DNA of 64,000 nucleotides from Effusibacillus pohliae DSM 22757. Lineage in GTDB: Bacteria > Bacillota > Bacilli > Tumebacillales > Effusibacillaceae. Shown here one piece after another: positions 46,281-53,197 of the stretch. Position 1 is the stretch's first letter; the number at the start of each line of letters is the position of its first letter. The stretch is from NCBI RefSeq assembly GCF_000376225.1, contig NZ_AQXL01000119.1, positions 1-64,000 of the forward strand, in the 5' to 3' direction. Under the pieces are notes generated by a model. That model was not told the origin of the DNA, searched no databases, and worked only from the letters and a program-made list of their open reading frames with translations. Position numbers and translations under genes: made by a program.

Positions 46281-46973
46281 TTACCCTGACAGCATTTTCT
46301 GCGCCCACCGCAGATCGTCGGGGCGGTCGATATCGTTGGCGATTTCCGGATAGGGGGAGATAACGGCCCGCGCATCGATCTGGAACAGTTCCGCCACGCG
46401 GCTTTCCAGCCGTTCGATCGTCAGCATCCCGGTCAATTTTGAAAATAACAGGCTGAACACAAACCGCAGCCCCAATTCGGCTGACAGCGCCAGCGGACTC
46501 TTGCGGAGTTCCAGCAATCTTTCCACCCGCTCCAAAAGAGGCAACAGTTTGGCCGGCTTCACAAGAAACAGGTTGCCGCCCGTAAACGTTCCGTCCTTGA
46601 GTTTTACAAACGTCCGGCGTACACCGGGAAAACGCTGTTCATGCACCCGCTTGTCCACGATCGGGTAATACAAGTCTGCATCCGACCGGCATCGATCAAG
46701 AAAATCTTCCACCGCCTGCGATGTCAGAAACGGGACGTCGCAGGTGACAATCAACAGGTATTCACTCGGATCGGGGCTTTGCTTCAAAGCGGTCGCAACA
46801 CCGTCAATCAACCGCCCCTGCTCTTGCACGATGATGATGTTGTCGATTCCCGAGGCGCCCGCGAGAGCCTCCACCACGTAGTCGATCATCTGTTTTCCGT
46901 GAATTCGGGCAAACGCTTTTCCTTCCGGAGTGAAGCCCGTCTGTTCACCGCCGGCGAGAACACAAGCTAACAT
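46281..46973 (-). CDS. MobA-like nucleotidyltransferase family protein
   Basis: A 230-residue protein of the NTP-transferase (GT-A-like) fold. The N-terminal loop MLACVLAGGEQTGFTPEGKA is a variant of the LAGGxSxRxGxxK nucleotide-binding motif, followed by IHGKQMIDYVVEALAGA and the metal site LLIVTCDVPFLTSQAVEDFL. The rest (GGNLFLVKPAKLLPLLERVE, RPDDLRWAQKML at the end) fits molybdopterin-guanylyl-type transferases. Its substrate is unknown. The ATG at 46973 follows GGGGAG. It sits between ispE and purR, where B. subtilis has no gene, so it may have joined the ispE unit. Confidence 0.8.
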   Translation of the reverse strand: MLACVLAGGEQTGFTPEGKAFARIHGKQMIDYVVEALAGASGIDNIIIVQEQGRLIDGVATALKQSPDPSEYLLIVTCDVPFLTSQAVEDFLDRCRSDADLYYPIVDKRVHEQRFPGVRRTFVKLKDGTFTGGNLFLVKPAKLLPLLERVERLLELRKSPLALSAELGLRFVFSLLFSKLTGMLTIERLESRVAELFQIDARAVISPYPEIANDIDRPDDLRWAQKMLSG

Positions 46974-47010
46974 GGTATCACTCCCCATACCCCATTTTGC
47001 CCAAATTCTT

Positions 47011-47859
47011 CTATAAGAATCTCGTCAGGTACACCTCCTTGGAAAACCCCCGCAGCGCGTTATACACCCGTTGCGCGCGGCTCTCCCGATCCGTGATGCC
47101 GAACACGGTGGGACCGGACCCGGACATGAGGGCCCCCATCGCTCCGAACTTGACCATTTGCTGTTTCAGCCTTGCCACTTCCGGATGCAATCGGAACGTC
47201 ACCTGTTCCAACACGTTGCCGAGGTGGCTCACAATACGCTCTACGTCCCCCGTCCGTAAAGCCTGCGCCATGCCGTTGGCGTCCGGATGGATGACGATTT
47301 CGTCAACCTTCAGGTTGCGGTACACGTCGGCAGTTGAGACAGCAATCGGCGGCTTGACCAGCACCACCCACAGCGGGCCGGCAGCCGGCAGCCGTTCGAT
47401 CATTTCGCCTCGCCCCCGCGCGATTGCCGTTCCTCCATACACGCAAAAAGGCACATCCGAGCCGATCTCCGCCCCCAATTGTGCCAGCTCGTCCGGCGTA
47501 AGCCCCAGCTCCCACAGCCGATTGAGGCCGCGCAGCGTCGCGGCGGCATCGCTGGAACCGCCGGCAAGTCCGGCGGCCACCGGGATCTGCTTGTCGATCG
47601 CAATATGCACCCCTTTGCGGATGCCAAAGCGCTCGCGCAACAAAACGGCCGCCTTATAGACCAGGTTGCGGCAGTCCAACGGGATGTAGGACACCCCGCA
47701 TGACAGCGTGATGTGGTCATCCTCCCGCGCTTCGAACACCAGATGATCTGCCAGGTCGACCGTTTGCATCACCATTTCCACTTCGTGATATCCATCCGGC
47801 CGTTTATACAGCACGTCAAGCGTCAAATTGATCTTCGCCTTCGCTTTTTCCCGAATCAC
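47011..47859 (-). CDS. ispE: 4-diphosphocytidyl-2-C-methyl-D-erythritol kinase
   Basis: GHMP kinase of the MEP isoprenoid pathway. The 282-residue product has [20 protein letters not shown], the ATP-binding glycine motif [20 protein letters not shown] (around residues 90-110), [20 protein letters not shown] and the C-terminal [14 protein letters not shown]. The start is a GTG with AGGCGGTGGAG just upstream. It is separated from the cph genes by a terminator. In B. subtilis ispE follows sspF directly. Confidence 0.96.
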
Positions 47860-47894: not shown

Positions 47895-47934
47895 TAAACA
47901 AAGAACCATCCTCCCACAAGCAAGGATGGTTCTT
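47895..47934 (-). terminator. Terminator after cphA
   Basis: Perfect 12-bp stem AAGAACCATCCT/AGGATGGTTCTT (47901-47912, 47923-47934), then TGTTTATG on the minus strand. The U-tail is short but the stem is long. Confidence 0.8.
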
Positions 47935-47940
47935 GCCCAG

Positions 47941-50601
47941 TCAAAGCTTGGCAATGCTCAACTGCTGCACCAATCCGCCAATCGTCGAGACGGGCACCGC
48001 CCCGGCTCGCTTCAGCAGTTCCAGTACAGGTTCCAGCTTTTCGTAAAAAACGACCACGATCTCCCCGTTTTCCATCTGCTGCAGCGCCTTGCTCAACGCT
48101 TCCCGTTCATCCAATATGATCTCGCAGTCCAGATCCGGTACTTCCTGCTTCGCCGCGCGCTCCATCAGACCGGAGATTTCGCCCCGCAAGCGGCCCCGCA
48201 AATCCTGGTCTTCCTTGATGATCAGCCGACTGAATCCTCTTGCTGCGACTCGGGCCGATTGTTCCACGATCCGATTGTCGCGGTCGCCCGGTACACCGAT
48301 GATGCCGGTTACCTTGCGTCCGTGCCAGCGGGCGGCCATCCGGCAGATCGCCTCGAACGAATCGGGATTGTGGCCGTAGTCGACCAGCACGTAGCCGCCT
48401 CCCACCCGGAACAGATTCGTCCGTCCCGGATTGTGCCAATCACTGCGAAAACTTTTGATCGCCGCCGCGATCCTTTCCCGCGACATCCCGCACCCTCTGC
48501 AGGCAGCGATCGCGGCCATCGCGTTCGCCACGTGAAACTCTGCTGTTCCGCTCATGGTGACAGGGATATCGGCGGCTCTGACAATTTCGCGTTCGCTGTG
48601 TCCGACCGCTTCCACAATCCAGCCCTGTTTGGCATAATAGGCCGTGCCGCCCACCGCAAGATGCCGTTTGATCAGCGGATGGTTCGCGTACAGCGAAAAA
48701 TAGACGACCTGCTTTTTCACTTTGCGGACGCGAGGGATCTCCATCAAGCGGGCCAGATGTTCGTCATCTGCGTTCAGCACCAGGATGCCCCCTTCGCACA
48801 CGCGTTCCGCCAGCAACGACTTGATATGCACCAGGTCTTCGATCTGTTCGATTCCGTCCTGCCCGATATGATCCGGTTGGATATTGGTAATCACCGAGAC
48901 GTCCGACCAATCGTAAGCGAGCCCCGCCCGGACGATGCCGCCGCGGGCCGTCTCCAACACCGCGATCTCGACAGTAGGATCGGACAAGACCGTTCTTGCC
49001 GAGCGCGGGCCTGTCATATCCCCTTTCGCGATACATTCCCCGGCGATAAAGATGCCGTCTGTGGTCGTCATCCCAACCTTCTTGCCGGTAGCGGCCAAAA
49101 TGTGCCCGATCATGCGGGTGGTGGTCGTTTTTCCGTTCGTGCCCGTCACCGACACGATCGGAATCCTCGCGGGCGAACCGGCCGGGTACAGCATCTCGAC
49201 GATCGCCTCCCCGACATCGCGCGCTTCCCCCTCGCTCGGGAACAGGTGCATGCGGATGCCGGGCGCCGCGTTTACTTCGATCACGCCGCCTTCCCCGGTT
49301 TTCAGCGGCTCGCCGATATTGGGCAGGACCAGGTCGATTCCGCAAATATCGAGTCCGATCACCCTCGCTGTCCGCTTGCACAACCTCGCCACTTCCGGAT
49401 GCACGTTGCCGGTCACATCCTTCGCCGTACCGCCGGTGGAAAGATTCGCGCTCTCCCGCAAAAAAACCACCTCCCCCTCCGCCGGAACATCCTGCAAACG
49501 GCGGCCGGATTTGCGGACATAGGCCACCAGGATCGGATCGATCTCAATCCGGGTCAGGGGCTTTTCATGGCCGTCCCCGCGAAGCGGGTCCCGGTTGGCC
49601 AGTTCGATCAGTTCCCCGATCGTATGGGCCCCATCCCCCACCACATGCGCCGGAATCCGTTCGCTTGCAGCCACCACCTGGCCGTTGATCACAAGCACCC
49701 GATAATGTCTGCCGCGAAAAAACTCTTCCACCAGCACGTCGGTCGCATACTCGCGGGCTATCTCGTACGCCTGTTTCACTTCCGCCGGGGTGGTGAGATT
49801 GAGGGATACCCCTCTGCCTTGGCATCCATTTAGCGGTTTCACCACCACTGGCGCCCCGACTTCCTGCAAAAAGGCGACCGCTTCCTCCTGAGTCCGAACG
49901 ATCTTTCCGCGCGGTACCGGAATGGATGCCTCTTCCAGGAGGAGTTTCGTCAACCCTTTGTCACTTGCAATATCGACGGCGATCGCACGGGTTTGGTCAC
50001 CGATCGTCGCCTGGATCAGCTTGCGGTGCTTCCCGTAGCCCAGTTGCACCAAACTGCCCTGGTTAAGCCGTATCCAGGGAATCCCCCGCCGCTCCGCCGC
50101 CTCCACGATCGCCCGCGTGCTGGGGCCCAGCTCTGTTTCCGCCGCGATGCGTTTCGCCTGTTCGATCCGTTCTTCCAACGGGAACGGTCTTCCTTTGATC
50201 AAGGCGTCCACCAGTTCCACCGCCGCTTGCAGCAGAAAGCGGGTGCTTTGTTCCGCCTTGTACTCCACTACCACATCGTAAATCCCCGGTCCGCCCGCAT
50301 ACAACGTTTTGCCGTAGTAGGCAGGGATCCCGGCCAGCTCTGTCAATTCAAGCGCCACATGCTCAACAATGTGCCCGAAGTAGGTACCGCCGTACAACCG
50401 TTCGACAAATCCGCCGGGACGGCCCTTGGCGCAATGATGATCACGAACTCCAGGCAAGAATTTCAACAATCGCTCGATAAAACCGGGAACCTGGTAACTT
50501 TCGACTTCCGTCAACTCTTCCAGGTACAGCTTCATCAAGAGAACAGGTTTATGATTATAGATATTCGGACCCGGCAAAGTCCGAATCTCACCGATTTTCA
50601 T
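47941..50601 (-). CDS. cphA: Cyanophycin synthetase
   Basis: Builds cyanophycin, a polyaspartate backbone with arginine side chains, as a nitrogen reserve. The 886-residue product has the standard layout: an N-terminal domain (KIGEIRTLPGPNIYNHKPVL), an ATP-grasp domain (about 215-480: KGLTKLLLEEASIPVPRGKI, VVVKPLNGCQGRGVSLNLT, VEEFFRGRHYRVLVINGQVV, IEVNAAPGIRMHLFPSEGEA) and a Mur-ligase-like domain with PIVSVTGTNGKTTTTRMIGH and LDYGHNP-type ending (VLVDYGHNPDSFEAI). GAGGAG lies about 10 nt before the ATG, in the 4-nt gap after and overlapping the cphB end. It is one unit with cphB. Confidence 0.95.
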   Translation of the reverse strand: MKIGEIRTLPGPNIYNHKPVLLMKLYLEELTEVESYQVPGFIERLLKFLPGVRDHHCAKGRPGGFVERLYGGTYFGHIVEHVALELTELAGIPAYYGKTLYAGGPGIYDVVVEYKAEQSTRFLLQAAVELVDALIKGRPFPLEERIEQAKRIAAETELGPSTRAIVEAAERRGIPWIRLNQGSLVQLGYGKHRKLIQATIGDQTRAIAVDIASDKGLTKLLLEEASIPVPRGKIVRTQEEAVAFLQEVGAPVVVKPLNGCQGRGVSLNLTTPAEVKQAYEIAREYATDVLVEEFFRGRHYRVLVINGQVVAASERIPAHVVGDGAHTIGELIELANRDPLRGDGHEKPLTRIEIDPILVAYVRKSGRRLQDVPAEGEVVFLRESANLSTGGTAKDVTGNVHPEVARLCKRTARVIGLDICGIDLVLPNIGEPLKTGEGGVIEVNAAPGIRMHLFPSEGEARDVGEAIVEMLYPAGSPARIPIVSVTGTNGKTTTTRMIGHILAATGKKVGMTTTDGIFIAGECIAKGDMTGPRSARTVLSDPTVEIAVLETARGGIVRAGLAYDWSDVSVITNIQPDHIGQDGIEQIEDLVHIKSLLAERVCEGGILVLNADDEHLARLMEIPRVRKVKKQVVYFSLYANHPLIKRHLAVGGTAYYAKQGWIVEAVGHSEREIVRAADIPVTMSGTAEFHVANAMAAIAACRGCGMSRERIAAAIKSFRSDWHNPGRTNLFRVGGGYVLVDYGHNPDSFEAICRMAARWHGRKVTGIIGVPGDRDNRIVEQSARVAARGFSRLIIKEDQDLRGRLRGEISGLMERAAKQEVPDLDCEIILDEREALSKALQQMENGEIVVVFYEKLEPVLELLKRAGAVPVSTIGGLVQQLSIAKL

Positions 50602-50605
50602 TCTG

Positions 50606-51439
50606 TCAGCTCCTCGTTCTGTCTGCCTTGTCAGAGTTTTGATCGATCACCGGCACCCGATCCCGCAAGTTGAACCGGTATCCGCCCGGCAGCACGTGCA
50701 GGGTAACGCCGCACAACGCTAGGTCGTCATTTTTTCGCAATCCGGGCAAATTCGAGTATGTAAGGGCGCCCGCATCGATCACGGTGACCGCCCCGGCCCC
50801 AATCACCACAAATTCGTCATCCTGCAGGACAAACGCGGTATTCTCATCGATCCCGATTCCCAAATGATGGGGATATTGTGCGACGGCCGACAACAATCGT
50901 CCGAGCCGCCCCCGTTGGGCGAAATGCTGGTCAATCACCACACCCGAGATAAATTCCATGCCGGGCGCCATATCCACGATGCCGATCCGCGGGTTGGTCT
51001 CAGGCACGCCTTCGATGATCATCGTGTTGGACATCATCGAAGCGCCCGCGCTGGTTCCTGCCAATACCATGCCTTCTTGGTGCCGTTTGTGCAGCAGCGT
51101 ATCGATTTTCGTACCGCCCAAAAGACTGGTGATGCGAACCTGATCGCCGCCAGTGAAAAAAACGCCGGTCGCCTGTTCGATCGCTTTCACTGCACTGGGG
51201 GCGTTCGCATTTTCCCGGTTGGAAACGTCAAATGTTCGCACATCCTCCACACCAATCCGGTCAAACGCTTCCAGGTATTGAGCCCCGACTTCCAACGGGA
51301 ACTCCGTCGCAACGGTCATCACGACAATGCGGGCGTGAGCGCCTCCAGCCAAACGGACAAACTCCCGCAGGATCCGGCACTCCCCCTGCTTGTCTTCCGC
51401 CCCGCCGATGACCACCAATGGACCGGGGGTTTGACTCAC
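50606..51439 (-). CDS. cphB: Cyanophycinase
   Basis: Serine peptidase of family S51 that breaks cyanophycin into beta-Asp-Arg dipeptides. The 277-residue product has PLVVIGGAEDKQGECRILRE, the motif GVFFTGGDQVRITSLLGGT, the nucleophile elbow MVLAGTSAGASMMSNTMI (Ser near residue 130), DQHFAQRGRLGRLL, and GIGIDENTAFVL. No signal peptide is visible, so it acts in the cytoplasm. The start is a GTG with AAGGAGG upstream. It is followed by cphA after 4 nt. Confidence 0.95.
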   Translation of the reverse strand: MSQTPGPLVVIGGAEDKQGECRILREFVRLAGGAHARIVVMTVATEFPLEVGAQYLEAFDRIGVEDVRTFDVSNRENANAPSAVKAIEQATGVFFTGGDQVRITSLLGGTKIDTLLHKRHQEGMVLAGTSAGASMMSNTMIIEGVPETNPRIGIVDMAPGMEFISGVVIDQHFAQRGRLGRLLSAVAQYPHHLGIGIDENTAFVLQDDEFVVIGAGAVTVIDAGALTYSNLPGLRKNDDLALCGVTLHVLPGGYRFNLRDRVPVIDQNSDKADRTRS

Positions 51440-51512
51440 CGTTTTGCGCCTCCTTCAAACAGAATCATAAAATTCAGCTTCACCCAAGGAAATTCCGGAT
51501 ATTCATGCAGAT

Positions 51513-51537
51513 GGAAAACCAGGGCGCATGCCCTGGT
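51513..51537 (-). terminator. Terminator after sspF
   Basis: Perfect ACCAGGGC hairpin with an ATGC loop (51518-51537), then TTTTCC on the minus strand. Confidence 0.75.
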
Positions 51538-51561: not shown

Positions 51562-51741
51562 TTAGCGATTTTGTTTGGCCATCGCCTCTTCCGCAATCTC
51601 AATCGCGCGCTTGACCATGTTCCCCGCGTCCACGGCCCGGATATACTTCCAGCCTTCCTGTTGAACAGTGTCATAAAAGCCGAGTTCCTTGGCCAATTCC
51701 ACTTTCAACTCGTCCGACATGATCCCGCGGCGTCGAGCCAT
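51562..51741 (-). CDS. sspF: Small acid-soluble spore protein, SspF-type
   Basis: A 59-residue alpha/beta-type SASP relative: [58 protein letters not shown]. Such proteins coat forespore DNA and protect it. The ATG at 51741 has AAGGAGG 8 nt upstream; the ATG two codons earlier is too close to that site. It lies after veg, as sspF does in B. subtilis. A SigG-like promoter lies just upstream. Confidence 0.93.
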
Positions 51742-51774
51742 CGTCATCGCCTCCTTGGCTGTGGCGTACACCAG

Positions 51775-51805
51775 TAGTATGAAACAATGGCAAAAGAAAA
51801 ATGCT
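51775..51805 (-). promoter_or_regulatory. SigG-like promoter of sspF
   Basis: Minus strand: AGCATT (51800-51805), 18-nt spacer, CATACTA (51775-51781). The -10 is perfect for SigG; the -35 fits TGMATA at 4 of 6. The -35 lies inside the veg terminator hairpin. Confidence 0.55.
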
Positions 51806-51843: not shown

Positions 51844-52122
51844 TTATCCCTGTACGTAAGTAACCCGGATGTGTTCATTATCTCTGCAGACCGTCAGTTC
51901 GACGGTTTCCGTAAGGATATCCGCATAGCTGTAAGACACGCGTTTAAAAGAGTTGCCGTTGTTCTCGAGCTTCACAACGAAAACGGACGGATACGTTTCC
52001 TCAAGCACACCCATCCGTTCGATCGTCTTGCGACGCCCTCCGTTGGCCCGAAGCAAGATTCTCTCTCCGATAAATCCGTCGAGATTCCGTTTAATCTCGC
52101 TGAGAGGGTTTTTCGTTGCCAT
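51844..52122 (-). CDS. veg: Veg protein
   Basis: A 92-residue protein: [77 protein letters not shown]. This is Veg, a small beta-barrel protein that in B. subtilis stimulates biofilm matrix genes by affecting SinR. AGAGGTGG lies about 6 nt before the ATG. A perfect SigA promoter precedes it, as for B. subtilis veg, one of the strongest promoters known there. Confidence 0.96.
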
Positions 52123-52309: not shown

Positions 52310-53170
52310 TCAGCGCGAACTTCGCGGCAGTCCCAGCCGGAATTTCCCCCTTGACTCGAGCCCTCCCAGCCCTTCCGTGCCGGTAATCGTCGATTGGACG
52401 ATGTCATAAATGTTAATGGTTTGATTGATCGGGGTATAGGCGATTTTTTCGGCAACCAGCACCGGGTCCAAGGCGTGTATCAGGATCCGCTTCGGAGACG
52501 AGGCAAAATTGGCACCGGCGTCCAAAATCGCTTCATAGTGAGACTGGCAAGCCCCGGCAAAGATCACCAGTTCATCGAGACTTCGTTCATACTTGCGGGC
52601 CACTTGCACCGCCTTGATAAAATTTTCCGAATTCCGGTAATTGTAGAGGTTCATGTCATCCTGACCTTTCCGAATCAGTCCGTCATGGCCGGTGATCACC
52701 AGAATGTCAGGATGGTACGCTTCAAGAAAATGGGGCAACACCTCGGCCATCCGCGATTCACTGACGTGATGGCCGTTCGCCTGCAGCCCCAATTCCTCGT
52801 AAAACAGCATACATTTATTCAGATAAGAGCCGTCTCCATCAAGATGGAGAATCCGCCCCGGACGTTCGTAAAACTCCTTGCCCTCCTGCAATTTGATCCC
52901 GGAGCGAAGCATCTGCTTCTCCTTGTCCACCAGCCGCCGCATCCGGATCAAGCGCAGGCTGTCCGCCTCCTGGCGCGAGTGCTGCAGCATGTAGGACTGC
53001 CATTCCGCATCCGCCACCCGCTCCAGATCTTCGAACGGAGCGTCTGCCAAAAGCCGTACTTCCATGCCCTTTAACGTGGCAATCCGCGTCGCGGGATCGA
53101 CATCGATGATAATAAAAAAAACGTCTTTGCCATATGATTTACGGGCAACCCGGTCACCGACCCTCCACAT
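52310..53170 (-). CDS. yabG: Sporulation-specific protease YabG
   Basis: Peptidase made in the mother cell that trims coat proteins for cross-linking. The 286-residue product has WRVGDRVARKSYGKDVFFII at the start, PGRILHLDGDGSYLNKCML, the probable catalytic region DILVITGHDGLIRKGQDDMN and ELVIFAGACQSHYEAILDAG, and ends TPINQTINIYDIVQSTITGT. The ATG at 53170 has GGAGGG about 6 nt upstream. It lies before veg as in B. subtilis and has a SigK promoter. Confidence 0.95.
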   Translation of the reverse strand: MWRVGDRVARKSYGKDVFFIIIDVDPATRIATLKGMEVRLLADAPFEDLERVADAEWQSYMLQHSRQEADSLRLIRMRRLVDKEKQMLRSGIKLQEGKEFYERPGRILHLDGDGSYLNKCMLFYEELGLQANGHHVSESRMAEVLPHFLEAYHPDILVITGHDGLIRKGQDDMNLYNYRNSENFIKAVQVARKYERSLDELVIFAGACQSHYEAILDAGANFASSPKRILIHALDPVLVAEKIAYTPINQTINIYDIVQSTITGTEGLGGLESRGKFRLGLPRSSR

Positions 53171-53197
53171 ACGCATCCCTCCGCAACTCAACTAGGA

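Follow-up and report, generated by a model that had tools for sequence, protein, structure and literature searches.

The cyanophycin operon beside ispE in Effusibacillus pohliae: a probable forespore-made reserve in spore-forming Bacillota

Why should the genes for making and degrading cyanophycin stand among spore genes, next to ispE? The question is raised by a stretch of 64,000 nucleotides from Effusibacillus pohliae DSM 22757 (contig NZ_AQXL01000119.1, positions 1 to 64,000; referred to below as the window), where the cyanophycinase gene cphB is followed, after an intergenic gap of 4 nt, by the cyanophycin synthetase gene cphA. The enzymes of cyanophycin metabolism are known already; what calls for an explanation is their location. 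The best explanation, which we regard as fairly probable on the sequence comparisons reported here, is that cphB-cphA is an old operon driven by sigma-F that would direct the synthesis of cyanophycin in the forespore, so that the polymer would be carried into the spore and degraded by CphB at germination.

The first-pass annotation of this region had placed a complete cphB and a complete cphA between sspF and ispE. This layout was borne out by the coordinates (Table 1), by profile matches and by the flanking genes, with sspF, then veg, then yabG upstream of cphB and ispE downstream of cphA. The cphA product scored 1220 bits against TIGR02068 (cyanophycin synthetase; cut-off 850) along model positions 1-860 of 862, the cphB product reached 315 bits against TIGR02069 (cyanophycinase; cut-off 126.6) and the sspF product was recognised as a small acid-soluble spore protein (PF00269, 23.9 bits against a cut-off of 22).

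The place of cphB-cphA in Bacillota genomes

The distribution of cphA was surveyed in samples of 14 genomes of the window's order, 399 genomes of its class and 299 genomes of its phylum, and neighbouring genes were mapped at the loci of the 61 cphA-positive class genomes and at 80 other loci of the wider phylum. CphA was present in 14/14 genomes of the order, in 61/399 of the class and in 95/299 of the phylum, a frequency that does not agree with the initial description of cyanophycin outside cyanobacteria as a matter of scattered cases. The pair occupied the veg/sspF-ispE site in 55 of the 61 cphA-positive class genomes. In the wider phylum, ispE came directly after cphA in 72 of the 80 loci, often with a nucleoside triphosphate (NTP) transferase gene, purR, spoVG and glmU behind it. 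A cyanophycinase gene accompanied cphA in nearly all loci.

The history of the pair was approached through a CphA tree that included eight outgroup rows from cyanobacteria, Proteobacteria, Deinococcus and Bacteroidota. Against these, the Bacillota sequences formed one well-supported clade, and 21 of the 22 host families with at least two rows were monophyletic, the exception holding a second, off-site copy. Across 72 loci, the splits in common amounted to 39/69 for CphA and IspE, 37/69 for CphA and GlmU and 36/69 for IspE and GlmU, and the distance correlations among the three proteins were 0.76, 0.75 and 0.76, a congruence that, because the three genes are linked, is by itself also compatible with the block having moved as a unit; the family codes, for their part, derive from genome-wide taxonomy. 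A separate observation in this tree concerns a metagenome-assembled genome of the Acidobacteriota (Pyrinomonadaceae; L009, 4952-9846), which contains cphB-cphA together with an IadA-like gene. Its CphA is 63% identical to that of the window and is nested within the window's order, and may represent a horizontal transfer or a misbinned contig.

Conservation of the site, congruence of the CphA tree with those of IspE and GlmU and monophyly of the families argue for an old residence of cphB-cphA. The simplest reading is one of long residence in the ispE block followed by many losses, for instance in B. subtilis, the direction of change (residence followed by losses) being drawn from the tree congruence. 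The opposite history, the recent arrival of a cphBA cassette at the sspF-ispE junction by horizontal transfer, finds some support in the ispE sites of 16 cphA-negative class genomes, one per family: sspF adjoined ispE in 13 of them (roughly 70-260 bp apart), and the other three had veg at ispE, with no sspF found. The flanks are thus the same with and without cphB-cphA, and the nested Acidobacteriota CphA indicates that transfers do occur. However, the pair was found at the same site in dozens of families, the trees are congruent and the G+C content at third codon positions of cphA and cphB (0.71 and 0.68) is close to that of the neighbouring genes (0.65-0.75). On these grounds of site, phylogeny and composition, recent insertion or transfer was rejected; it is already contradicted and has very little probability left. 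The statement in the first-pass annotation that the pair was inserted in the block was therefore abandoned in the face of the 55/61 and 72/80 loci at the same site and of a CphA that follows its hosts; the comparison with cyanobacterial and Firmicute versions of CphA, proposed there as a check, gave a single host-following Bacillota clade.

Other genes of the block deserve mention. A gene for a MobA-like NTP transferase lies at 46281-46988, between ispE and purR. The same arrangement occurs in many clostridial loci and was not seen at that place in the 16 cphA-negative class genomes checked; this gene, too, may have belonged to the ispE block for a long time. About 17 clostridial loci have a spore coat gene of the SPOCS-LysM (SipL-like) type upstream of cphB (e.g. 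at 9298-10878 in L120).

The promoter of cphB and the link to sporulation

Is the pair, if it has long belonged to the block, also expressed as a spore gene? Sigma-F promoters of B. subtilis have the form GYATA-N15-GGNNANANTR. The general form of this consensus is supported by published work (PMC3789822). A candidate promoter of this type was found 36 nt before the cphB start, with GAATA as −35 element (51504-51500), a 15-nt spacer and GGTGAAGCTG as −10 element (51484-51475). The four species of the window's genus all share the motif and, when these were compared together with the nearest relative, TGAATAT and TGGG were the longest invariant blocks between the hairpin behind sspF and the ribosome-binding site. 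The sspF-cphB gap of relatives also contains TGAATA or TGCATA and GGNNANANTR-like blocks, separated by ~15 bases and mostly located 40-70 bases before cphB.

Fixed sigma consensus strings were then scanned against dinucleotide shuffles. Upstream of cphB, the sigma-F motif gave a Z of about 20 in the Bacilli (51-52 loci) and of 16-18 in other Bacillota (67-69 loci), values that ignore the relatedness of the sequences. Neither sigma-A nor sigma-K was enriched in either set (about 120 loci scanned), and the sigma-E values of the two sets were flat (Z 0.9) or close to it (Z 2.4). Each control gene gave its known class in the same scan: veg scored for sigma-A (Z 37), yabG for sigma-K (Z 19) and sspF for sigma-G/F (Z 13). 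No sigma-F signal appeared at ispE, purR, spoVG or, in Bacilli, cphA. The scan can therefore be considered internally calibrated. The strict threshold was passed by 72/133 loci compared with 2.9% of the shuffles, and at least half of the loci were motif-positive in 25 of the 47 families. In the genome of the window, sigG has GCATA-N14-GGAAATACTG at the expected place; sigG is a sigma-F target in B. subtilis. The family f123 (L122, L123 and L125) has cphBA away from ispE, and in two of these loci, L123 and L125, a perfect sigma-G promoter, GTATA-N18-CATACTA, was present.

The limits of the transcription unit were examined by folding. The hairpin behind sspF was absent from the list of a simple terminator scan, though it formed in folding (z −1.6), and relatives also have hairpins at this place; a strong terminator-like hairpin follows cphA. 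Because these structures separate sspF from the candidate promoter and close the unit before ispE, cphB-cphA is best seen as a two-gene forespore unit of its own.

The occurrence of spoIVA was used to relate the pair to sporulation. In the phylum sample, spoIVA was found in 93 of the 95 cphA-positive genomes, the two exceptions being 75% and 61% complete (Fisher p 5e-7, uncorrected for relatedness), and the genome of the window has sigF, spoIVA and argH. The link with sporulation that had been suggested at first reading thus gains support from both the conserved forespore-type promoter and this co-occurrence. In C. ljungdahlii, granules have been described and cphB is among the upregulated sporulation genes (PMC13241827). 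The same study reports granule-like bodies in growing cells, which, together with the standard CphA1 and CphB character of the enzymes, would suit an ordinary vegetative nitrogen reserve as in cyanobacteria, placed beside spore genes by accident. This alternative is improbable, since sigma-A is not enriched upstream of cphB, where the forespore signal is strong, and cphA is nearly confined to spoIVA-positive genomes. A vegetative sigma-A promoter for cphB was ruled out, as none was found in the set-wide scan or in the scan of the window. As to veg itself, the window contains a perfect sigma-A promoter (TTGACA-18-TATAAT) and a near-perfect second one about 40 bases downstream.

Predicted synthesis and use of the polymer

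The capacity of the two enzymes was judged by alignment with solved structures, end to end with 7lg5 and 7wac for CphA and over nearly the full length of 7uqv and 3en0 for CphB. When CphA residues were mapped onto the literature-defined positions of the solved enzymes (PMC9262961, PMC9427784), 17 of 18 active-site positions agreed. The protein has an N domain, a G domain (ATP-grasp) and an M domain (Mur ligase, K491/T492), and both ATP sites are present. In the numbering of TeCphA1, seven of the eight positions tested in the G domain (K220, K261, H267, R309, R323, N394, S396 and R458) and all four in the M domain (K499, T500, T522 and E558) are identical. The N domain carries Cx19HxxEH (C57, H77, E80 and H81), the zinc-site motif of primer-independent CphA1 enzymes (PMC9262961), and because this site is kept, CphA should be able to start the polymer without an added primer. 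CphB has its catalytic set, Ser130 (in GTSAGAS), His172 and Glu199, so that the catalytic sets of both proteins are intact, as had been noted in the first instance. An identity as CphA2, an enzyme with one active site that lacks the N-domain motif, was discarded given that CphA of the window has this motif and two intact ATP sites. Elsewhere in the collection, the CphA reading frame is split in two in L096 (genome G217), and in genome G003 cphA is divided over two contigs (L061/L062).

According to the explanation favoured here, sigma-F (sigma-G in some families) would switch on cphB-cphA in the forespore, where CphA would build cyanophycin from Arg, Asp and ATP, with a primer-free start through the metallopeptidase site of its N domain. 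The polymer would be deposited in the forespore and then enclosed in the spore. On germination, CphB would cut it to beta-Asp-Arg, which would be split by an enzyme that has yet to be recognised in this group, and cyanophycin would thus serve as a reserve of Arg and Asp.

The last step is the one for which the genome of the window offers no known candidate. TIGR01975, PF01112 and PF24827, which represent the IadA, IaaA and AstE/AspA types of beta-Asp-Arg dipeptidase, were all without a match in the genome of the window, and both IadA and IaaA are lacking in 12 of the 14 genomes of the order. The Firmicute beta-Asp-Arg dipeptidase has been stated to be undiscovered (PMC10206079). The possibility that it is encoded in the same cluster was rejected: the window has no gene of this kind at its ispE site, clustering of the neighbours revealed nothing peptidase-like common to the ispE-site loci and IadA goes mainly with off-site clusters. 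In the families f74 (L139, L141 and L177), f22 (L075) and f15 (L074), IadA lies beside a cphBA pair located away from ispE, and no forespore-type promoter was found upstream of these clusters. The cluster of the Acidobacteriota genome (L009) is of the same kind. Family f133 departs from this pattern: there, IadA and an ispE-site pair occur on one stretch.

The absence of a visible, dedicated recycling enzyme in those 12 genomes is also what would be expected if cyanophycin were a filler or structural matrix made in the forespore for spore assembly, with its nitrogen incidental. This is the main rival explanation, and we consider it rather unlikely. The forespore-type promoter fits it equally, and C. 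perfringens cphA has been linked to spore assembly (Liu et al., 2016, as cited in PMC5532821 and PMC13241827). Against it stands the near-constant company of a cyanophycinase gene at the cphA loci, as would suit a polymer destined to be degraded.

Several observations weigh against a sigma-F-driven reserve. The promoter of the window itself, at 9 of 11, falls below the strict threshold, the consensus strings are those of B. subtilis, and the Z values take no account of relatedness. In 22 of the 47 families the motif is weak or absent; one of these is f25, in which cphB begins almost directly after the sspF hairpin, with nearly no gap. Spores can do without cphA, which is present in only 93 of the 249 spoIVA-positive genomes; cphB-cphA is a trait of spore formers and no requirement for sporulation. 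Finally, the P-loop His267 of TeCphA1, a His in the cyanobacterial and gammaproteobacterial CphA structures, is replaced by Gln261 in the CphA of the window and by Gln in 129 of 135 Bacillota relatives; as far as these alignments indicate, it is a lineage feature of Bacillota.

This substitution might mean that the product of the lineage's CphA is a polymer akin to cyanophycin but not identical with it (e.g. with Lys or with altered Asp addition), the more so as a His267→Ala mutant is impaired or loses activity in cyanobacterial enzymes (PMC9427784). Such a change of product is quite improbable, given that all other tested Asp, ATP and M-domain positions are kept and that Ziegler 2002, a paper cited in PMC5532821, dealt, to judge from its title, with expression of a Firmicute enzyme (Desulfitobacterium hafniense) and characterisation of the polymer it makes.

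Table 1. Features of the cphB-cphA locus in the window
Feature	Position	Strand	Basis
cphA, cyanophycin synthetase 1, 886 aa	47941..50601	(-)	profile and Pfam domain matches, active-site mapping
cphB, cyanophycinase, peptidase S51, 277 aa, GTG start	50606..51439	(-)	profile, structure alignment, catalytic residues
Candidate sigma-F-type promoter, GAATA-N15-GGTGAAGCTG	51475..51504	(-)	motif score 9 of 11
Terminator-like hairpin behind sspF, ACCAGGGC-ATGC-GCCCTGGT then TTTT	51518..51537	(-)	folding z −1.6
Terminator-like hairpin after cphA, 13 pairs	47901..47934	(-)	folding z −4.9 and terminator scan
ispE, downstream flank of the cphB-cphA site	47011..47859	(-)	profile matches
sspF-like small acid-soluble spore protein gene, upstream flank, ATG start 51747	51562..51747	(-)	
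Sigma-G-type promoter of sspF, GCATT-N18-CATACTA	51775..51804	(-)	score 10 of possible 11
veg, flank gene	51844..52122	(-)	profile match
veg sigma-A promoters, internal control	52217-52188 and 52175-52147	(-)	
yabG, sporulation peptidase, flank gene, sigma-K control	52310..53191	(-)	profile matches

Significance and relation to known cyanophycin systems

The presence of cyanophycin in spores is not a new idea; it has been raised for C. perfringens, a case represented here through the papers that cite it, and in PMC5532821, PMC9482736 and PMC13241827. A fixed locus throughout the phylum, with co-inheritance and a conserved forespore promoter, was not found in the open-access literature; subscription journals were not covered and priority is therefore uncertain. 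We advance tentatively, and with more reserve than the forespore origin itself, the wider proposal that the ancestor common to the sampled Bacillota already had cyanophycin as an endospore component, made under sigma-F from a fixed locus, used at germination through the undiscovered dipeptidase and lost in B. subtilis and other lines. These losses of cphBA would then be the reason why cyanophycin is missing from the standard picture of the spore. If correct, a storage polymer known mainly from cyanobacteria would turn out to be an ancient sporulation product, specific to one compartment, in much of the Bacillota, and the close association of cphBA with ispE and the spore block would be explained. 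The role of cyanophycin in spores would become testable in thermophiles, and the search for the missing Firmicute dipeptidase would be given a direction.

Cyanophycin genes of other spore formers offer the nearest comparisons. C. perfringens cphA, as reported by the papers citing Liu et al. (2016), is likewise a cyanophycin gene of a spore former with a link to spore assembly, whereas the organism of the window is on the Bacilli side. In segmented filamentous bacteria, cphAB likewise adjoins ispE, in the order cphAB-ispE-ger, and a germination reserve has been suggested there (PMC9482736); that remark concerned one genus, without promoter or phylogeny, and in the window ispE has no visible ger operon next to it. 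CphA-like genes also occur in the spore-forming Bacillus horikoshii 20a (PMC5532821), as three tandem CphA2-like copies without the Arg-site residues, whereas CphA of the window keeps the tested M-domain residues. The off-site cphB-cphA-iadA clusters of f74, f22 and f15 encode the same enzymes, but they are not at ispE and have the isoaspartyl dipeptidase alongside.

The cyanobacterial cphB-cphA1 systems (Synechocystis SuCphA1, 7lg5; Trichodesmium TeCphA1, 7wac) share with the window the three-domain CphA1, Cx19HxxEH, both ATP sites and the cyanophycinase partner. In contrast to them, CphA of the window has a P-loop Gln in place of His and falls in a separate clade, and where the cyanobacterial genes have a vegetative promoter, the pair described here has a forespore-type promoter and a fixed place beside ispE.

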